Origin: Candidatus Latescibacterota bacterium
GTDB taxonomy: Bacteria; JAAXHH01; JACQVL01
Direction: 5' to 3'
Length of the DNA stretch: 9,928 nucleotides
Assembly: GCA_016209865.1 (NCBI GenBank)
Contig: JACQVL010000303.1
Coordinates: forward strand, 1 to 9,928
Both the position numbers and the translations under genes were made by a program. Below are positions 12 to 9,419 of the stretch, in pieces. The notes below the pieces were generated by a model. That model had not been told where the DNA came from, ran no database searches, and saw only the letters and a list, made by a program, of their open reading frames with translations. Positions within the stretch are counted from its first letter, which is position 1. Each line of letters opens with the position of its first letter.

Positions 12-1919
12 CTATTGCCCCCCTCCGCCCCCACCCGCCGCCACGCCGGGAGCTTCCTCGAACATCGACTCGATCTGGAGGAGCCGGCCGTCGGTCGGGA
101 CTTTGAGGGTGAGCGGCTTCGCGTACTCCGGCAGCGGGACGTCTTTCTTGTTGGCGAAGATCGGGTGCCGGCCGTACTTCTTGAACCACTCGACGGTCGT
201 CGCGTTCATGTGCATCTTCTCGACGATGTTCCGCCAGCCGACCCCGGTGTTGTACGCACAGAAGGAGATCTCGCCCATCTGGGTGGCGTACGGGATGATG
301 CACATCTCGGTCCGCCGGAAGTCGTACGTGAACAGATCCTGGAACCACATCCCGGCGATGAACATGATCAGCCAGTCGTCTCCCTTGCGGTTCTCGTTGT
401 CCATCGCGCCGAGCTTCCCGCCGAGCGCCCCGCCGCTCTGCTTGTCGAACTTCCTGATCAGGTCGTAGAGCTTGAACCCTTCCGGCGCCTGCGTCGGGTC
501 GTAGTTGCGGAGGACGCTCAGCCCGACCTGGACCTTCGTCCAGAACGGGCTCCGGGCGGCGTCGACGATCTTCTTGGCGTCCGTGAGCAGCCGCTCCAGG
601 TTGAGGAACTGCGGCAGGGGCGCCCACTTCTTCGTCCGCTTGTTGACCATCAACGCAGTGGAAATCCCGCAGTTCGGGTGGCATCCGCACTTCATCGTCC
701 CCCATTCCGCTCCCGGCCCCTTCAACAGGTCGGTCATGTCGGAGATCGGGCCGACGGCCGAGATGGGGAACCAGTCACGCAGCGGCTCGGTCACCCCGGT
801 CTGGTTTTTCACGTCATGGGCCAGGTGGGAGAGGGTGTACCGGTGCTGGGCCCGGGTCTCGTCGTCGATGTCCTCGTCCCGCCCGGTGAACGACACCGGC
901 TGGAACGCGATGAAGCTGATCTTGTCCGCGTTCTCGATGGCGAACTTGATGACCGGCCCGACCTGATGGTCGTTGATCGTCTTCACGATCGTCACCACCA
1001 AGACGACATCGATGCCCGCCTCGTACAGGTTCTGGATCGCCCGGAGTTTGACGTCGAACAGGTTGCTGATCTTCCGGTGGGCATGGTTTTGGTTGCCGAC
1101 CCCGTCGAACTGGAGGTAGGCCAAGCGCATGCCCGCTTCCCGCGCTTTCTTCGCAAAATCCGGCTCCTGGGCGAACCGGATGCCGTTCGTCGCCGCCTGC
1201 ACGCTGAAGTACCCGACGTCCTTCGCGTACTTCACTGCATCCAGGAAGATCGGGGAGATCGTCGGTTCCCCGCCGGAGAACTGGACGGAGAGTTGTCGTT
1301 TCGGTTTGATCGTGATCGCGTCGTCGAGGAGTTTCTTCACATCCTCGAACGTCAACTCGTGCACGTACCCCACCTGGTTGGCGTCCATAAAGCACGGGTC
1401 GCACATCATGTTGCACCGGTTGGTCAGGTCGATCGTCAAGACCGACCCGCGGCCGTACTGGATGGACGACGTGCCGTGGTTGTGGAGGTCGGTGACCGCT
1501 TTGAAGTCACGCCCCGGGTAGAGGCGTTCGATCCGCGCCAGCCACTTGGGGTCGATGGCCAGGATGTCCTCGAACGTCCCGTGGGTCGGACAGGTCTTCC
1601 GCATGATGATCTTGCCGTCTTCCTCTAAGATCATCGCCTTGATCTCGCCCGGATGGCCGTGGATGAGGACGTCCAGGTCTTCCTCGCCGTTCAGGATGTT
1701 CTCACGGGTCTCTTTGACGCACTTCGGACAGAGAGAGTCCGTCTGGCGGGGCCAGCCGAGGGTAGGGAAACTCCGCTCCTGGCTCTTCAACAGGGGGGCC
1801 GGCGCCCATTTCGGTTGGAACATCTTGCCCTGGAACCGTTGATTGACGGACTGAAAGATCGGCCAGGCGGCCGACGCCGCTTTGGTCAGCGCCAGTTCCA
1901 TCGTCTTGGTCAAATCCAT
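12..1919 (-). CDS. Radical SAM protein, COG1964/MJ0619 (tetraether synthase-like) type
   Basis: This is a 635-residue radical SAM enzyme. The SAM-binding [4Fe-4S] motif CxxxCxxC is C169/C173/C176, and the SAM-contacting GGEP is at about 216-219. Before the core lies a metal-binding-like segment with C64, C67 and C110 (CPKC and CPTH). After it come further cysteine groups, C411/C413/C417 and C540/C554, suggesting auxiliary iron-sulfur clusters. A cysteine-rich N-terminal module plus a radical SAM core with C-terminal cysteines is the layout I associate with COG1964, which includes MJ0619, first described as a pterin-related methylase and later linked to tetraether lipid synthases. No B12-binding domain or membrane segment is evident. 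The substrate cannot be read from sequence; joining or modifying lipid chains is one possibility. The protein ends in a low-complexity Gly-rich tail (about 629-634). The ATG start is supported by a very strong Shine-Dalgarno. The gene lies 134 bp downstream of ccmF in the same direction. Radical SAM membership is certain; the subfamily is probable. Confidence 0.9.
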   Translation of the reverse strand: MDLTKTMELALTKAASAAWPIFQSVNQRFQGKMFQPKWAPAPLLKSQERSFPTLGWPRQTDSLCPKCVKETRENILNGEEDLDVLIHGHPGEIKAMILEEDGKIIMRKTCPTHGTFEDILAIDPKWLARIERLYPGRDFKAVTDLHNHGTSSIQYGRGSVLTIDLTNRCNMMCDPCFMDANQVGYVHELTFEDVKKLLDDAITIKPKRQLSVQFSGGEPTISPIFLDAVKYAKDVGYFSVQAATNGIRFAQEPDFAKKAREAGMRLAYLQFDGVGNQNHAHRKISNLFDVKLRAIQNLYEAGIDVVLVVTIVKTINDHQVGPVIKFAIENADKISFIAFQPVSFTGRDEDIDDETRAQHRYTLSHLAHDVKNQTGVTEPLRDWFPISAVGPISDMTDLLKGPGAEWGTMKCGCHPNCGISTALMVNKRTKKWAPLPQFLNLERLLTDAKKIVDAARSPFWTKVQVGLSVLRNYDPTQAPEGFKLYDLIRKFDKQSGGALGGKLGAMDNENRKGDDWLIMFIAGMWFQDLFTYDFRRTEMCIIPYATQMGEISFCAYNTGVGWRNIVEKMHMNATTVEWFKKYGRHPIFANKKDVPLPEYAKPLTLKVPTDGRLLQIESMFEEAPGVAAGGGGGGQ

Positions 1920-1922
1920 ACG

Positions 1923-1932
1923 CCTCCTCCTT
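1923..1932 (-). promoter_or_regulatory. Strong ribosome binding site of the radical SAM gene
   Basis: The minus strand reads AAGGAGGAGG, then CGT, then ATG. This near-perfect anti-16S match fixes the start at 1919. It is the strongest ribosome binding site in the window; the kinase gene has no obvious one. I could not identify a convincing promoter between the preceding hairpin and this site. Confidence 0.8.
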
Positions 1933-1990
1933 CTATGAGGAAAGGGTCATGGACCCAATATGTATGTACGGTGGTCATGATCCGACGCGG

Positions 1991-2033
1991 TGTAGGGGCG
2001 AAGCATTCGCGGGACGAATGCTTCGCCCCTACA
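1991..2033. repeat. Perfect 19-bp inverted repeat between ccmF and the radical SAM gene
   Basis: The arms TGTAGGGGCGAAGCATTCG and their exact complement surround a 5-nt loop, giving a very stable hairpin about 20 nt after the ccmF stop. There is no T-tract on either side, so it is not a classic intrinsic terminator, though it could weaken read-through or protect an mRNA end. Similar GTAGGGGCGAAGC palindromes are, from general knowledge, dispersed intergenic repeats in several bacterial lineages, so a small repeat or MITE-like element is the likelier identity. Confidence 0.7.
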
Positions 2034-2058
2034 TGATACGTTACGATGATACGTTACG
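2033..2058. repeat. 13-bp tandem direct repeat overlapping the ccmF stop codon
   Basis: ATGATACGTTACG occurs twice in tandem (2033-2045 and 2046-2058). The second copy contains the ccmF stop codon (TAA on minus, 2054-2056), and the first abuts the hairpin at 1991-2033. It may be a duplication made when the neighbouring palindrome inserted, since the unit lies on only one side of the palindrome now. Confidence 0.75.
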
Positions 2059-4072
2059 CGCCCACCTGCTGCCCCGCGTGACGCATCGCCCGGTCGGACC
2101 GGCGAGGCGGCCGATCCTCCTGGCTGGTTGACCGGCGTTCGCGCCGGTCCGGGAAGAACACGATCAGCGTGCCGAGGACGATCACCCAGGTGCCGATCCA
2201 GACCCAGTTGACGAGGGGGTTCAGGTACACCTTCAACGTCGCCACATCCCCGCGCTCGTTGAAGTCGGCGAGGACGACGTACAGGTCTTCTCGCAGGGTG
2301 GAGTAGATGGAGACTTCTGTCGTCGTTTCGCCCTGAATCGGGTAGAAGCGCTTCTCCGGCACCATCAGCCCGACCGGCTGTCCCGCAGCGGACAGGAAGA
2401 CCGACGCGATGGTCGAGGTGAATTCTCCGCGCTCCGATTGGGTGAGGTCGTCAAACCGCAGGGTGTAGTCGTTCACCGTCATCGATTCACCTTTGCGCAG
2501 CGTCTTGTCAGTCTCTGTCGTGAACGCCGCCCCGGTGAACCCGGCGAACATCAGGACGATCCCCAGATGCACGATATACCCGCCGTACCGCCGTTTGTAG
2601 CCCCAGATGAGCTTGCCGAAGGCCACCGGGTACGCCTCCCCGTTCGTCGAATGACGGGCCCGCGTCCCCCGGTAGAACTCCGTGCCGAGAGCCCCCACGA
2701 CGAACGCGCACATGCCGAACGAGAGGATGGCGTACACGTGCCGCACCCCGAACCCGATGAGGACGAAGATGGTCACGACGAAGAGGAGGACGGGCACGGT
2801 GAAATGCCGTTTCAGGCTGGCGACGGACGTCTTGCGCCACGCGAAGAGCGGGCCAGCCCCGGTCAGGAACAGGAGAAAGATGCCGAGGGGCACGTTGATC
2901 TGGTTGAAGTAGGGCGCGCTGACCGTGATCTTGACCCCGCGCACCGCCTCGGAGATGACGGGAAAGATCGTCCCCCAGAGCACCGCGAAACACGCCCCCA
3001 CCAGCGCTAAGTTATTGAGAAGGAAGCTGCTTTCCCGTGAGACGAAGGAGTCGAGTTCGCTCTGGGCTTTCAGCGCCTTCCGCCGGCTGAACAGCAGCCA
3101 GAATGACCCCCCCATGCTGAGCGCCACGAACGACGAGAAGAACGGCCCGATGCCCGACTGCGTGAACGAATGGACGGACGAGACGATCCCGCTCCGGGTC
3201 AGGAACGTCCCGAAGATCGACAGGCCGAACGTCATAATAATCAGCGCCATGTTCCAGACCTTGAGCATCCCCTTCTTCTCCTGGATCATCACCGAATGGA
3301 GGAAGGCGGTCACGGTCAGCCAGGGCATCAGCGCCGCGTTCTCGACCGGGTCCCATGCCCAGTACCCGCCCCAGCCGAGCTCGACGTACGCCCATTTCGC
3401 GCCGAGCAGCAGGCCGACCCCTAAGAAGAACCAGGCATACAGCGTCCACCGCCGGACCGTCCGGATCCAGGTGTCCCCCACCTCGCGCGTGATCAGAGCG
3501 GCCATGGCGAACGCGAACGGGATGGCCACCCCCACGTACCCCTGGTAGAGCACCGGCGGATGGATGACCATCAGCGGCATCTGGAGGAGCGGGTTCAGCC
3601 CTTTCCCCTCCGCCGGGGTGAACGGGAGCAGGTCGAACGGGTTGGATACGAACAGGTTGAGAGAGATGAAGAAAAGAACGATCGTCATCAGCACCGCGCA
3701 CACATACGGCATCAGCACCCGGTTGCGCGTCCGGTTCTGGATGAGGACGATCAGGCTGAAGGTGGCTAACAGCCAGCCCCAGAGCAGGAGCGACCCCGCC
3801 TGGCCGGCCCAGAGCGCGGCGAACCGGTAGAAGCCCGGAAGGGTGCGGCTCGTGTACGACGCGACGTACTCGACCTGCAGGTTGCCGATGACGAGGTTAT
3901 AGACGAGCGCGCCGGCCGCCAGGGTTAACAGCCCCCAGACGGCGACCACCCCACGCTCCCCGCTGGCGATCAACCGCTCATTTTGAGACCGCGCCCCGAA
4001 TACCGAGGCCACGATCGCGTACGCGGCGGATAGGAACGCAAGGGTGAGACTGAAATACCCGAGATCAACCAT
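2054..4072 (-). CDS. ccmF: Cytochrome c heme lyase subunit CcmF
   Basis: This is a multi-pass membrane protein of 672 residues from the start chosen here, close to the usual ~650. CcmF works with CcmH/CcmI to attach heme covalently to apocytochromes c on the outer face of the inner membrane (System I). The tryptophan-rich WWD heme-handling motif lies at about 233-241 (GWGGYWAWD), followed by PVEN. The four expected heme-ligand histidines are present: H171 (HPPVLY), H259, H301 and H502, matching E. coli H173, H261, H303 and H491. A large periplasmic loop (about 515-615) precedes the last membrane helix, then a basic, charged tail. The frame stays open another 23 codons upstream, but I start at 4072: it gives the canonical MVDLGYF beginning, has a GAGG ribosome site, and the extra codons would be translated from a dispersed repeat. 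No other ccm gene is in the window. A sigma-54 promoter lies upstream, so expression is probably conditional. Confidence 0.96.
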   Translation of the reverse strand: MVDLGYFSLTLAFLSAAYAIVASVFGARSQNERLIASGERGVVAVWGLLTLAAGALVYNLVIGNLQVEYVASYTSRTLPGFYRFAALWAGQAGSLLLWGWLLATFSLIVLIQNRTRNRVLMPYVCAVLMTIVLFFISLNLFVSNPFDLLPFTPAEGKGLNPLLQMPLMVIHPPVLYQGYVGVAIPFAFAMAALITREVGDTWIRTVRRWTLYAWFFLGVGLLLGAKWAYVELGWGGYWAWDPVENAALMPWLTVTAFLHSVMIQEKKGMLKVWNMALIIMTFGLSIFGTFLTRSGIVSSVHSFTQSGIGPFFSSFVALSMGGSFWLLFSRRKALKAQSELDSFVSRESSFLLNNLALVGACFAVLWGTIFPVISEAVRGVKITVSAPYFNQINVPLGIFLLFLTGAGPLFAWRKTSVASLKRHFTVPVLLFVVTIFVLIGFGVRHVYAILSFGMCAFVVGALGTEFYRGTRARHSTNGEAYPVAFGKLIWGYKRRYGGYIVHLGIVLMFAGFTGAAFTTETDKTLRKGESMTVNDYTLRFDDLTQSERGEFTSTIASVFLSAAGQPVGLMVPEKRFYPIQGETTTEVSIYSTLREDLYVVLADFNERGDVATLKVYLNPLVNWVWIGTWVIVLGTLIVFFPDRRERRSTSQEDRPPRRSDRAMRHAGQQVGA

Positions 4073-4085
4073 GAAGACCTCACAC

Positions 4086-4113
4086 TGGATTCCCGCTTGC
4101 GCGGGTAATGACA
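4086..4113 (-). repeat. dRS3-like palindromic repeat, copy A, in the ccmF leader
   Basis: TGGATTCCCGCTTGCGCGGG then TAATGACA: an imperfect palindrome with ATTCCCGC and GCGGGTAAT arms around a 4-nt loop. One extra T distinguishes it from copy C (9393-9419). It lies 13 nt upstream of the ccmF start, so it would be transcribed as a hairpin just before the ribosome site. The shape resembles the neisserial dRS3 form ATTCCC-N8-GGGAAT; no common origin is claimed. Confidence 0.8.
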
Positions 4114-4186
4114 ACATCGTTAGAACGGCTAAGGCAAGCAATTAGTTTAAATCTATACGCCTTCCCACGTTCGCGCAACCCCAAAA

Positions 4187-4200
4187 TGTGATCTATCACA
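4187..4200. promoter_or_regulatory. Inverted repeat TGTGA-N4-TCACA at the predicted ccmF transcription start
   Basis: TGTGATCTATCACA is a perfect dyad of TGTGAT and ATCACA with a 2-nt spacer. It looks like an E. coli CRP site shortened by 2 bp in the middle, so the normal CRP spacing (TGTGA-N6-TCACA) is not met, and it is not a standard FNR site. The predicted sigma-54 start (about 4195) falls inside it, so a bound protein would more likely repress than activate. Which family binds it is unknown. Confidence 0.5.
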
Positions 4201-4205
4201 CATAG

Positions 4206-4221
4206 TGCAAAATCGGTGCCA
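4206..4221 (-). promoter_or_regulatory. Sigma-54 (RpoN) -24/-12 promoter for ccmF
   Basis: The minus strand reads TGGCAC, five bases (CGATT), then TTGCA: a full match to the RpoN consensus TGGCAC-N5-TTGCA, including the GG and GC dinucleotides at the correct spacing. Transcription would begin near 4195 and give a leader of about 123 nt before ccmF. Sigma-54 polymerase needs an AAA+ activator, and one is encoded immediately upstream on the same strand. Confidence 0.85.
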
Positions 4222-4446
4222 GAGCCGGAGCCTGGCCGGGGGTCGGCTCCTCCTGCCGCGACGAATATTACATAAGTATCTGAAAAATTGATATTAATGC
4301 TCTATTTCCCGTTCTCGTTTCTGGACTCAGAGAGGACGCATCCGGCCCGTCATCAATCAGACCGCTGTCAAATTTTTATCGATCGGACCAAGAAGTCTTC
4401 GCCTCAACGCTGTTCAACCTCATGGAGGAGTGAAGACTTGCACGGC
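4222..4446. other. Gene-free spacer between activator-site dyads and sigma-54 promoter
   Basis: I see no credible gene here. Next to the promoter is a short GC-rich dyad (GAGCCG 4222-4227 with CGGCTC 4244-4249). From 4260 to 4320 the DNA becomes markedly AT-rich compared with the genes, including an IHF-like near-match. A single half-site TGTCAAAT (4366-4373) repeats half of the downstream dyads. A loose 8-bp inverted repeat (AAGTCTTC 4393-4400 with GAAGACTT 4432-4439) is also present. The layout suits the looping DNA between an enhancer and a sigma-54 promoter. Confidence 0.5.
4281..4293 (-). promoter_or_regulatory. Possible IHF binding site
   Basis: The minus strand reads TATCAATTTTTCA, which meets WATCAA-N4-TTR at all defined positions but one, inside an AT-rich tract. 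It lies between the putative activator sites and the promoter, where IHF often bends DNA at sigma-54 promoters. The consensus is loose, so chance occurrence is possible. Confidence 0.35.
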
Positions 4447-4483
4447 CGTCGAATATTGGACAGCCCCTGTCAAATATTCGACA
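4447..4483. promoter_or_regulatory. Paired 16-bp dyads, candidate upstream activating sequences
   Basis: Two related dyads occur in tandem: CGTCGAATATTGGACA (4447-4462) and TGTCAAATATTCGACA (4468-4483), both of the form YGTC-N-AATATT-N-GACA. Their centres (4454.5 and 4475.5) are 21 bp apart, about two helical turns, so two activator dimers would sit on the same DNA face. Together they also form one larger inverted repeat (16-bp arms, one mismatch, 3-bp spacer). They begin 4 bp after the activator gene's stop codon and lie about 260-280 bp upstream of the predicted ccmF transcription start. A transcription terminator for the regulator gene is the alternative, but no T-tract follows the hairpin on the minus strand. 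Confidence 0.6.
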
Positions 4484-4486
4484 CCC

Positions 4487-5872
4487 TCACTCCCCTGGCT
4501 TTATCCCATACTTTTTCAGCCGGTAGAGCAAGTTCTGCCGGGGAATGCCTAAGAACCGGGCAGCCTGGCTCCGGTTGCCGTGGTGCAGGTCAAGGGCGTG
4601 CTCAATGAGCCGGCGGTTGAGGTGTTCCAGGACGTTCCCTCCGGCCGGCATGTTGAGGGTCAGCAAGTCGTCGGAGGAGGAGATCGACGGGCGCGGCTGT
4701 GACTGGATGAACGAGAGGTGTTCCGTGTGGACGACCAGGCTGTCCTCGACTAAGGCCACCCGTTCGATCGCGTTCTTCAGCTCGCGGACGTTCCCCCGCC
4801 AGGGGTGGCTGAGGAGCAGGCGTTCGGCCTCCGAGGTGAACCCGGTGAACGTTTTGTTGAACCGCTCCCCGAACTGCGCTAAGAACGCCCGGCTGAGGAG
4901 GAGGACGTCCTCCCCGCGCTCCCGGAGGGGCGGCATGACGATCCGGGCGACGTTCAAGCGGTAGTAGAGGTCTTCCCGGAACTGCCGCGATTCCACCGCG
5001 CGTTGCAGGTTGCGGTTGGTCGTGGCCACGATGCGGACGTCGATCGTCCGCTTCGTCGTCCCTCCCACCTGGTAGAGCGCCCGCTCCTCGATCACCCGGA
5101 GCAGGGTCACCTGCGTGGGCAGGGGGAGTTCGGCCACTTCGTCTAAGAGCAGCGTCCCGCCGTCGGCCAGCTCGAACTTGCCCTTCTTCCCCTTCGGCAG
5201 TCCGCCCGTGAACGTCCCGCGCTCGTAGCCGAACAGCTCGACCTCCAACAGGTCTTTCGCGATCGCCCCGCAGTTGATCGTGATAAACGGCCCCGACGCC
5301 CGTGGGCTCTGGTAATGGATAGCGCGAGCAACCAGTTCCTTCCCCGTCCCGCTCTCCCCCTCGATCAGCACCGTCGTGTTCTCGCTCTTCACGATCTTGC
5401 CGATCAGCTCCAGAATCCGTTTGATGGGCGGGCTCTCTCCGATGATCCGGAGCTCATGGTACTGCTCGATCCGCTCCGACTGGAGTTGCTTCACCTGGCG
5501 CGTCAGCCGGACGGTTTGCAGTCCTCTCTCGATCGTCAGCTCCAGTTCGTCTAAATCGAGCGGCTTGACTAAGTAATCGAACGCCCCGTCCTTCATCGCC
5601 TCGACCACATGACGGACCTTCTCGTGCGCGGTAATCATCAGGACGACGATGTCCGGGTCGTGCCGTTTGATCTGCCGGAGCGTCTCCAGTCCATTCATGC
5701 CGGGGAGGGCGATGTCCAGCAGTACCAGGTCGGGTGCCCGCTCCCTGACGAGCGCAATCCCCTCCTCCCCGCTGCTGGCTAAGATCGTCTCGTACTGGCT
5801 CGACAGGACGGTGTTGAGCGACTGGAGGAGCGACGGCTCGTCGTCGATGATGAGGATTTTGGGGGGTCTCAT
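4487..5872 (-). CDS. NtrC-family sigma-54-dependent response regulator
   Basis: This is a 461-residue activator with three parts. The receiver domain (about 4-120) has acidic-pocket D10/D11, phospho-acceptor D53, T81 and K103. The AAA+ sigma-54 activation domain (about 143-370) has Walker A GESGTGKE (172-179), Walker B LLLDE ending D244/E245, and likely arginine fingers R299 and R305. A Fis-type helix-turn-helix closes the protein (about 415-458). When phosphorylated, such proteins oligomerise on distant sites and use ATP to open sigma-54 polymerase complexes. The sigma-54 contact loop, normally GAFTGA, reads GTFTGG (219-224). The ATG overlaps the kinase stop codon (ATGA), so translation is probably coupled; no separate ribosome site is obvious. 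The likely target is ccmF. The signal sensed is unknown, so no gene symbol is given. Confidence 0.95.
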   Translation of the reverse strand: MRPPKILIIDDEPSLLQSLNTVLSSQYETILASSGEEGIALVRERAPDLVLLDIALPGMNGLETLRQIKRHDPDIVVLMITAHEKVRHVVEAMKDGAFDYLVKPLDLDELELTIERGLQTVRLTRQVKQLQSERIEQYHELRIIGESPPIKRILELIGKIVKSENTTVLIEGESGTGKELVARAIHYQSPRASGPFITINCGAIAKDLLEVELFGYERGTFTGGLPKGKKGKFELADGGTLLLDEVAELPLPTQVTLLRVIEERALYQVGGTTKRTIDVRIVATTNRNLQRAVESRQFREDLYYRLNVARIVMPPLRERGEDVLLLSRAFLAQFGERFNKTFTGFTSEAERLLLSHPWRGNVRELKNAIERVALVEDSLVVHTEHLSFIQSQPRPSISSSDDLLTLNMPAGGNVLEHLNRRLIEHALDLHHGNRSQAARFLGIPRQNLLYRLKKYGIKPGE

Positions 5873-7845
5873 GTCGAGTGTTGCGCGTTCAACGGGAACC
5901 GGATGAGGAACGTCGTGCCGTCGCCCACTCGGCTGGCGACCTCGATCGACGCCCGGTGGCGTTCCAAGATACGCTGGACGATCGACAGTCCCAGTCCCGT
6001 TCCCTGCGACCGGGTCGTGAAGAAGGGGTTGAAAATCTTACTCAGGTTCTGCGGGGCGATCCCGACCCCGGTATCCGCCACCCGGACATCTACCGTCTGC
6101 GTCGTCGCCCGCACGGCGATCGACAGTCGTCCGCCCGCCGGCATCGCATGGATGGCGTTCAGGAAGATGTTCACGAACACCTGCTGGACCTGGTTGGGGT
6201 CGACGAAGACCGGCAGGATGCGGGCGGGCGGGTCGAACTCGACCTGAACCTTCGCCTTGTCGAGGGATCTCCGGACGACGCCGAGGCTCTGCTCGATCAC
6301 CCGGGTCAACTCGGTGAACCGGAACGCCGGCTCCTCGGGACGGGCATAACTCAGGGTGTTCTTCACCACCCCCTCGATCTTCTGGATGGCATCCAGGATG
6401 TTCCCGACGATCTTGCGCTGCGTCTCGTCGGCGGTGAGCTGGCGGGCGAGCAACTGGGCGTCCAGCTTCACGCTCGACAGCGGGTTCCGGATCTCGTGCG
6501 CGATCCCGGCGGAGAGTTCGCCCAGAGACGACAGCCGGTCCATCCGGCGGATCTCTTCCTCTAAGCGGCGATGCTCGGTGATGTCCCGCAGGACGAGCAC
6601 CGAGCCGATCCGTTCCCGGCGGTCGTCGAACCGGGGGAAGGCGGACAGGAGGAACGTCCCCTCGATGACCAGGTCGTTCACCTCTTCCACGACCGGCTCG
6701 ACCTGGTCGGGTCCGAGCAGGCGATCCCCCCAGGTCCCGGCCTGGCCGTTCCGGATGAACACCGCCTGCCAGGTCTGGCCGATGAGCTGGTCCGGGGACG
6801 TCCGCAGCCGTTCGACGAGCGCGCGGTTGACCCGGATGATGCGACCGCTGGCATCCTGGACGGAGATCGGGTCGGTGATGGCGTCGAACGTGTCCTCCCA
6901 CTCCCGCTTGTCCTGGGACACCTGGTGGAAGAGCTGCGCCTTCTCGACCGCTAACCCGACCTGATGGCCGATCGTCACGATCAGGTCGATCTCGTGCTCC
7001 GCGAACCGGTGCGCCTGGCGCGACCCCACGCTCATCGTCCCGACGATCCGATCCCGCGCCCGCAGGGGCACCATAGCGAACGCGGCAACGCCTAAGTTGA
7101 GGGCGGCGATCTGTCCCAATCGCGGGTCGCGACTGATGTCCTCGGCGTAGATCGGCTGGCCGGACTGGAACACCTGGCCGAGCACGTTCTCGTTGATCTT
7201 CACCCGGCCGATCACCCGGGCGTACTCACCCGGCAGATGATCGCTCGCCATCATGACGAGCTCCGCCCGCTCGGCGTCCAGCACGTGCACCGCCCCCATC
7301 TCCAGTCCCGTCACTTCGATCACCCGGTCGAGGGCGATCGTGACGATCTCGTCGAGGTCGAGCGACTGGCTGATCGCCCAGGCGACGTGGTTGAGGGCGG
7401 ACAACTCTAAGTTCCGCCGCGCGACTTCCGCCTCCGCCTGCTTGATCTCGGAGAGGTCTTTGACGATCCCCATAATCGCCACCGGCCGGCCCGCCTCATC
7501 CCGGACGAGCGAGGTCGAGAGGAAGATCGGAAACCACCCCCCGCTTTTCTTGATCGTCATCGCTTCCCCGCTCCAGCCGTCCTTCTCCAGCATCGCCGGG
7601 ATCATCTCCCGGTTCTCCGCGTACGCCGGGTTGAGGACTTCGACCCCCTTGCCGATCAGCTCGTCCATCTCGTACCCGAACAGCTCCCGCACCGCCCGGT
7701 TGGTGTAGGTGATCCGGCCGTTCAGGTCGGCGATGACGATCCCATCGTACGCGCTGTCGACCGCGTGAGACAGGAAGGTGAGCGTCTTCTCCAGCGCCGC
7801 GCGCGCGCTGGCCTCTTGTTCGACGATGACGAGACGGTTAGGCAT
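5869..7845 (-). CDS. Soluble PAS-GAF-PAS sensor histidine kinase
   Basis: This is a 658-residue sensor kinase, the presumed partner of the overlapping response regulator. In order: a short N-terminal stretch, a PAS domain (about 25-135), a short helical linker, a GAF domain (about 158-305), a second PAS domain (about 316-425), the HisKA dimerisation domain with H450 in HEIRNP, and a HATPase domain (about 545-653) with N-box N559/N563, G1 DTGVG (591-595) and G2 GTGLGL (615-620). No signal peptide or membrane helix is visible, so it should sense a cytoplasmic cue such as redox state, a gas, a cofactor or a small molecule; nothing seen identifies which. The H-box resembles NtrB-type kinases. The ATG has no clear Shine-Dalgarno. 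The gene is 91 bp downstream of rpiA and could share its transcript. Confidence 0.95.
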   Translation of the reverse strand: MPNRLVIVEQEASARAALEKTLTFLSHAVDSAYDGIVIADLNGRITYTNRAVRELFGYEMDELIGKGVEVLNPAYAENREMIPAMLEKDGWSGEAMTIKKSGGWFPIFLSTSLVRDEAGRPVAIMGIVKDLSEIKQAEAEVARRNLELSALNHVAWAISQSLDLDEIVTIALDRVIEVTGLEMGAVHVLDAERAELVMMASDHLPGEYARVIGRVKINENVLGQVFQSGQPIYAEDISRDPRLGQIAALNLGVAAFAMVPLRARDRIVGTMSVGSRQAHRFAEHEIDLIVTIGHQVGLAVEKAQLFHQVSQDKREWEDTFDAITDPISVQDASGRIIRVNRALVERLRTSPDQLIGQTWQAVFIRNGQAGTWGDRLLGPDQVEPVVEEVNDLVIEGTFLLSAFPRFDDRRERIGSVLVLRDITEHRRLEEEIRRMDRLSSLGELSAGIAHEIRNPLSSVKLDAQLLARQLTADETQRKIVGNILDAIQKIEGVVKNTLSYARPEEPAFRFTELTRVIEQSLGVVRRSLDKAKVQVEFDPPARILPVFVDPNQVQQVFVNIFLNAIHAMPAGGRLSIAVRATTQTVDVRVADTGVGIAPQNLSKIFNPFFTTRSQGTGLGLSIVQRILERHRASIEVASRVGDGTTFLIRFPLNAQHST

Positions 7846-8687: not shown

Positions 8688-8714
8688 TGGATTCCCGCAT
8701 GCGCTGGAATGACA
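8688..8714 (-). repeat. dRS3-like palindromic repeat, copy B, in the rpiA leader
   Basis: TGGATTCCCGCATGCGCTGG then AATGACA: the same element as at 4086 and 9393, with two substitutions relative to copy C. It lies 40 nt upstream of the rpiA start and downstream of its predicted promoter, so it would be in the transcript. Confidence 0.8.
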
Positions 8715-8950: not shown

Positions 8951-9373
8951 TTACTTGAGCAATGTCATCCAGCGGGTCTGACTGAACCCGGCGGTCATCG
9001 TCAGCCTGTACAGGTAGACGCCGCTGGCCACCGCCTCCCCGTGGACGTTCCGGCCATCCCACGCCACGACATACCGTCCCGGCGCTTTCGGTTCATCCAC
9101 GAGCCGCGCCACCTGCTGGCCTAACAGGTTGTACACCGCTAAGATGATGTGCGCCGCCTGCGGCACGTCGTAGGCAATCCGCGTCGCTGGGTTGAACGGG
9201 TTCGGCCGGTTGGGCTTCACGGTAAAAAACAATCGAGCCAGCGTCTTACCCGGCGGCGGGACGGCCCGCTGATCGAACCGCACCACGCCGTTCACGGACG
9301 CGGGCAAGATCAGGAGGGCGCTGAGGAGTCCGAACGCGACGACGCGCAGAGCGAAAAGGGGACGATGAGGCAT
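8951..9373 (-). CDS. Small exported protein with FlgD-Ig/T9SS type A-like C-terminal domain
   Basis: This is a 140-residue protein of two recognisable parts. The N-terminus looks like a signal peptide: basic start, hydrophobic core at about 9-25, possible cleavage near 26-30. Residues 50-140 form a FlgD-Ig/type IX secretion type A-like domain: the NRPNPFNPAT hallmark (55-64), then VYNLLGQQVARL, G-Y-V-WDG, and ASGVYLYRL near the end. Such domains normally sit at the C-terminus of large secreted enzymes or adhesins, where they guide export or surface attachment. Here almost no cargo lies between the signal peptide and the domain (about 20 residues). It may be a stand-alone surface protein or the remnant of a larger gene. 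A GGGGTGA ribosome site precedes the ATG, and the gene looks intact. Confidence 0.85.
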   Translation of the reverse strand: MPHRPLFALRVVAFGLLSALLILPASVNGVVRFDQRAVPPPGKTLARLFFTVKPNRPNPFNPATRIAYDVPQAAHIILAVYNLLGQQVARLVDEPKAPGRYVVAWDGRNVHGEAVASGVYLYRLTMTAGFSQTRWMTLLK

Positions 9374-9392: not shown

Positions 9393-9419
9393 TGGATTCC
9401 CGCTTGCGCGGGAATGACA
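9393..9419 (-). repeat. dRS3-like palindromic repeat, copy C
   Basis: TGGATTCCCGCTTGCGCGGG then AATGACA: the cleanest copy, with arms ATTCCCGC and GCGGGAAT around TTGC. It lies 19 nt upstream of the start of the small exported protein gene, in the same orientation to that gene as copies A and B have to theirs. Confidence 0.85.

Follow-up and report, generated by a model that had tools for sequence, protein, structure and literature searches.

CorSR from Myxococcus xanthus is an NtrC-type two-component system whose regulator has the same domains as the one studied here (PMC3707914). Closest to the present locus are NtrC-family systems with sigma-54 promoters such as AtoSC, ZraSR and NtrBC: the genes for a REC-AAA-HTH_8 regulator and its kinase adjoin each other, a -24/-12 promoter is present, and the tandem dyads stand far upstream of it. 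The locus described here combines such an arrangement with a heme lyase gene, ccmF, and with a gene for a radical-SAM protein related to the tetraether synthase Tes.

Widely used palaeoclimate proxies raise the question of what bacteria produce branched tetraether lipids, and under which circumstances. Bacterial Tes homologues are without confirmed activity; the brGDGT-making Edaphobacter reportedly produces these lipids under oxygen limitation, and suboxic and euxinic waters are reported to harbour Tes homologues, those of Poribacteria included (PMC8941075, PMC11868695). Among Black Sea Poribacteria MAGs, 10 of 29 are reported to carry such a homologue (PMC11868695). Here we propose that the locus is likely to encode a sigma-54-dependent two-component switch dedicated to an operon of ccmF and the tes-like gene.

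A cytosolic kinase and an NtrC-type regulator precede ccmF

We analysed a stretch of 9,928 nt from a Candidatus Latescibacterota genome (contig JACQVL010000303.1), referred to as the window. All genes concerned lie on its minus strand; rpiA comes first, followed by the kinase gene, the regulator gene, ccmF and the radical-SAM gene. The NtrC-type regulator that the original prediction had read from the sequence was confirmed at 4487-5872 (-), where the product carries REC (PF00072, 107 bits), sigma-54 AAA+ (PF00158, 216 bits) and Fis-type HTH_8 (PF02954, 49 bits) domains. The adjoining gene at 5869-7845 (-), whose reading frame overlaps that of the regulator by 4 bases, encodes a HisKA and HATPase_c sensor histidine kinase, with the domain order PAS-GAF-PAS-HisKA-HATPase in the profile search. 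The kinase is a cytosolic sensor: it has no transmembrane-like segment (top 19-residue hydropathy of 1.7), and its signal is therefore internal. The AtoC and AtoS models gave the top family scores for the pair, and all NCBIfam equivalog scores stayed far under their cut-offs (445 versus 714 for AtoC), indicating that the pair is none of the named two-component systems. As we read it, the functional unit also takes in the kinase (5869-7845) and the radical-SAM gene (12-1919), both outside the range of the original prediction.

We then searched 58 other genomes for an orthologue of the regulator. The only clear one (68% identity) was found in G011, a genome from the same order and another family, and the best matches outside the phylum reached about 44-46%. 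A kinase orthologue stands at the same place in G011 (65% identity). The GAFTGA loop of the regulator reads GTFTGG in both orthologues (window 4487-5872; L037 7372-8760 in G011), retaining the F, the T and the following G. Among 33 other sampled activators GAFTGA was found in 23, the others having GAFTDA, GSFTGA, GSYTGA or GAYTGA, and GTFTGG in none. Since the variant is common to both orthologues, it is old and presumably tolerated.

The gene at 2054-4072 (-) is CcmF-like by domain, its product being a CcmF/NrfE-type heme lyase (Pfam CcmF_C, 219 bits; Cytochrom_C_asm, 133 bits) with the tryptophan-rich WWD motif WGGYWAWDPVENA. The Pfam cut-offs were passed, and TIGR00353 scored 452 bits against a cut-off of 569. 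Identity to the G011 orthologue is 70-71%. We also looked for ccmE, the sole other ccm gene examined: it lies on another contig than ccmF in G011, is present in four relatives, and was not found in the window's own assembly, which is 83% complete. At the far end of the window, 8951-9373 (-) encodes a small secreted-looking protein consisting mostly of a FlgD/type IX-like C-terminal sorting domain.

Tandem dyads and a -24/-12 element lie between the regulator and ccmF

The gap between regulator and ccmF spans 414 bp. Two 16-bp dyads 21 bp apart had been predicted just past the regulator, and both are present. Dyad 1 (4468-4483 (-), TGTCGAATATTTGACA) is exact to TGTCNAATATTNGACA and stands 3 nt past the regulator stop, while dyad 2 (4447-4462 (-), TGTCCAATATTCGACG) has one mismatch to the same motif; both are candidate regulator sites. 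Their centres are 21 bp apart, that is, two helical turns, and an exact dyad appeared in 0 of 5000 dinucleotide shuffles of the gap. Dyad 1 is a probable binding site of the regulator.

TGGCAC-N5-TTGCA, predicted before ccmF, was recovered as a perfect match at 4206-4221 (-) (TGGCACCGATTTTGCA, 0 mismatches), 134 nt upstream of the ccmF ATG, and an exact promoter of this kind occurred in 0.02% of 5000 dinucleotide shuffles of the gap. The first gene downstream of this predicted sigma-54 promoter is ccmF, and judged from the standard distance, transcription is expected to start near 4195. Sigma-54 is encoded in the window's own genome (PF04552, 3.4e-61) as well as in G011. Across the whole genome, -24/-12 strings with one mismatch at most are no more frequent than the reversed pattern (44 versus 67), and the exact sites are in modest excess only (8 versus about 1.8 expected from base composition). 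An exact element at G000:C255:9836-9851 (L072), 113 nt before a groES-like gene identified by reading, suggests that chaperonin genes may be under sigma-54 control in this genome.

An IHF-like site had been proposed as a further part of the circuit. The near-match exists (4281-4293 (-), TATCAATTTTTCA, 1 mismatch), but an equally good string was found in 31% of the shuffles and G011 has no counterpart at that place, and we therefore count it neither as evidence for the circuit nor as a proven part of it. An IHF site between dyads and promoter is a frequent but not a required feature of such circuits. The gap holds two other features. A perfect palindrome, TGTGAT-AG-ATCACA, at 4187-4200 of the window spans the expected transcription start; its spacing is unlike that of CRP and FNR sites, and it is not at that place in G011. 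A dispersed repeat, GATTCCCGC(T/A)TGCGC, occurs in three gaps of the window (4088-4102, 8690-8704 and 9395-9409; 0.2 expected by chance), with one copy sitting within the ccmF leader. No match to known RNA families was found in the RNA-family search.

We further scanned for the dyad motif elsewhere. In the own genome, whose assembly is 83% complete, the motif with up to two mismatches to TGTCNAATATTNGACA was found at the present locus only, and in G011 its exact relaxed form was found at the ccmF locus only. Other places with a one-mismatch dyad were mostly intragenic, and a sigma-54 element was near none of them. The near-matches that we opened in the own genome, in G011 and in G013, another genome of the phylum, were likewise all intragenic and away from any sigma-54 element, except for one intergenic near-match in G011 (C334:3281), which lies 127 nt from an outer-membrane-efflux-like gene (by reading) and also has no sigma-54 element nearby. 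Occurrence of the motif at one locus suggests that the regulator acts on one promoter only, as far as an own assembly of 83% completeness can be read.

The dyads, their phasing and the promoter are kept in G011

G011 is the only relative retaining the order rpiA-kinase-regulator-ccmF-radical-SAM, with identities of 75, 65, 68, 71 and 82%, respectively. Its regulator-ccmF gap is 535 bp long and cannot be aligned with that of the window; compared locally, the two gaps resemble each other most at the dyads. The counterpart of dyad 1, TGTCCAATTTTCTACA, lies 12 nt past the regulator stop; that of dyad 2, CGTCGATAATTTTTCA, is weak, with 9 of 14 positions matching and 5 differing, and stands exactly 21 bp on. 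The -24/-12 counterpart, TGGTATGGAATTTGCT, lies 137 nt upstream of ccmF. In 5000 shuffles of the G011 gap, such a promoter at 137±10 nt appeared in 0.06%, such a dyad no more than 25 nt from the regulator stop in 0.02%, and the 21-bp pair in none. The C-terminal helix-turn-helix is almost identical in both regulators, which fits a common DNA site.

These comparisons also bear on whether the dyads might be an RNA hairpin ending the kinase-regulator transcript, as a terminator or stability element, instead of sites for the regulator. The dyad pair of the window does fold as a single 16-bp RNA stem (-25.4 kcal/mol, z -5). However, no T-run follows the dyads and the terminator scan does not pick them; moreover, the G011 counterpart does not fold in this way (z -1.4), although the DNA motif and the 21-bp spacing are kept there. 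We regard this explanation as very improbable and read the dyads as candidate DNA sites of the regulator.

The two-component and radical-SAM genes are kept or lost together

We next examined the 16 genomes of the phylum. All of them carry ccmF and 14 of them a recognisable sigma-54, while the two-component genes were found in only two, the window's genome and G011; the radical-SAM gene is intact only in those same two. In 13 of the 14 genomes lacking the system, sequence is available before ccmF, and rpiA lies directly upstream at a distance of 18-385 nt; the contig of the fourteenth, G001, ends within ccmF. A dyad is absent from all 13 upstream regions (at least 4 mismatches in 14 positions), and so is a -24/-12 element (at least 4 mismatches). 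The check in relatives named in the original prediction came out in its favour: dyads, 21-bp phasing and promoter are present where the two-component genes are, in G011, and absent from the 13 relatives without them.

This distribution makes it unlikely that the circuit serves ccmF and cytochrome c maturation with the radical-SAM gene as an unrelated neighbour. Such a reading has in its favour that the first gene behind the promoter is ccmF, which encodes a heme lyase of the pathway. But ccmF is kept in all 14 system-less genomes, in none of which the radical-SAM gene is intact, and no exact dyad occurs elsewhere that could recruit other ccm genes, the near-matches being without a nearby sigma-54 element. 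Of the original claim that the circuit controls ccmF, a dedicated NtrC/sigma-54 circuit reading into ccmF is supported, while its being devoted to ccmF is not: ccmF survives without the circuit, and it is the Tes-like gene that is co-retained and co-lost with it.

In 11 of the system-less genomes, the 500-740 nt past ccmF hold broken C-terminal pieces of the radical-SAM gene, with stops and frame changes (L055 9716-10214; L058 6317-6849; nine further loci, between ccmF and rny). No kinase or regulator remnant was found before ccmF in the other phylum genomes, so that loss of these two genes, as opposed to their never having been present, rests on the tree. In the CcmF tree the window forms the earliest branch, followed in turn by G001, by G011 and by G013 together with the remaining clade. 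Because the window branches first and G011 is nested inside, the full arrangement spans the deepest sampled split of the phylum. The simplest history is ancestral presence followed by at least two joint losses of the two-component and radical-SAM genes with ccmF kept, one at G001 and one at G013 and its sister clade; one of these losses is less sure, since the G001 assembly is only 85% complete. Outside the phylum, among 80 close ccmF loci, a full NtrC-type regulator was in reach only at L119, 5 kb downstream and 39% identical.

The system-less loci also invite the view that ccmF is transcribed by read-through out of the kinase-regulator genes, or from a housekeeping promoter that went unrecognised, with the sigma-54 element being functionless. 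All genes are on one strand, and the relatives with ccmF 18-385 nt past rpiA and no sigma-54 element indicate that ccmF can manage without it. However, promoter position and core are kept between the two otherwise unalignable gaps of the window and G011, and no sigma-70-like site was found in 1900-4600, which is weak evidence. We consider a functionless element improbable, and a sigma-54 promoter feeding into ccmF the better reading.

The gene behind ccmF encodes a relative of Tes

The gene at 12-1919 (-) encodes a Tes/GDGT-MAS-related radical-SAM protein with a zinc-ribbon N-terminus. Its closest solved relative is the archaeal GDGT/macrocyclic-archaeol synthase PDB 7tol (E 6.8e-72), over residues 93-569, and the radical-SAM core CxxxCxxC is present. 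With the NCBIfam Tes model NF045702 the score was 333 bits, short of the cut-off of 450; the product is therefore a Tes relative, not an equivalog. Relatives with 58-68% identity were found in five other families, and none of these genes adjoins ccmF. At the six nearest Tes-like genes elsewhere we found no adjoining ccmF or regulator and no intact -24/-12 element.

The spacing between ccmF and the radical-SAM gene is 134 nt in the window versus 40 nt in G011. The 134-nt gap contains a hairpin-forming repeat (1992-2032 (-), GTAGGGGCGAAGCATTCG...CGAATGCTTCGCCCCTAC), and co-transcription of the two genes is therefore not assured in the window. There is no such repeat in the G011 gap, where the radical-SAM gene has a good ribosome site and starts 40 nt past ccmF, which speaks for a single transcript. 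Past the radical-SAM gene, G011 carries mqnD- and mqnB-like genes of the menaquinone futalosine pathway, by reading (L037 1159-1986 and 1983-2720, (-)).

A proposed switch for ccmF and the Tes-like gene

Taken together, these results lead us to favour the dedicated switch, which would work as follows. The soluble PAS-GAF-PAS kinase would sense an internal signal and phosphorylate the NtrC-type regulator, whose oligomers would occupy both dyads on the same face of the DNA, two turns apart. A DNA loop of about 250 bp would bring the regulator to the RNA polymerase–sigma-54 complex at the -24/-12 element, where the promoter would be opened. The transcript would span ccmF and most likely run on into the radical-SAM gene. 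Where the unit is missing, ccmF is still there but no intact Tes-like gene, which makes the Tes-like gene the better candidate for the purpose of the unit; the radical-SAM enzyme is probably the co-inherited, defining target, with ccmF switched along. The signal may be redox state or low oxygen, a guess prompted by the oxygen-limitation reports on Edaphobacter and by the suboxic and euxinic waters in which Tes homologues occur. Several observations weigh against the model: the full set is present in two genomes only, the second dyad of G011 is weak, the regulator has the GTFTGG loop, the hairpin repeat lies between ccmF and the radical-SAM gene in the window, and near-exact -24/-12 strings are no commoner than the reversed pattern.

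More tentatively, and with more doubt than confidence, one on/off circuit might couple bacterial tetraether-type lipid synthesis to cytochrome c heme ligation through one cytosolic signal, with the losers of the lipid enzyme having dropped the switch. If so, membrane remodelling and assembly of the respiratory chain would be switched together. A conserved switch before a Tes-like gene would also offer a direct handle on the enzyme, in that the inducing signal would tell when it is needed.

Comparison with known systems

The combination of sigma-54, an NtrC-type regulator and ccmF, and with it sigma-54 control over the gene of a heme lyase, was not found in the open-licence literature searched. 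Among the targets named in a paper on the Geobacter RpoN regulon there is neither a heme lyase nor any other cytochrome c biogenesis gene, and one open-licence paper brings together tetraether and sigma-54, on an acid-tolerance genome of Acidihalobacter, which appears unrelated. CorSR controls a copper-tolerance cluster, and the available part of its description names no ccmF or Tes target (PMC3707914).

The individual parts of the locus can be set beside their known counterparts. The ccmF product shares CcmF_C, Cytochrom_C_asm and the WWD motif with CcmF/NrfE of cytochrome c maturation system I; unlike there, ccmF is apart from ccmE (on another contig in G011) and the TIGR00353 score is under cut-off. 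The 12-1919 product has the CxxxCxxC core in common with archaeal Tes/GDGT-MAS (PDB 7tol; PMC8941075) and is its sequence relative over residues 93-569, but it falls under the NF045702 cut-off and belongs with bacterial homologues of no confirmed activity (PMC8941075, PMC11868695). Compared with AtoSC, ZraSR and NtrBC, the locus differs in its target gene set and in the GTFTGG loop. Its architecture is that of a textbook NtrC-type sigma-54 circuit, and the target is new within the open-licence literature searched.
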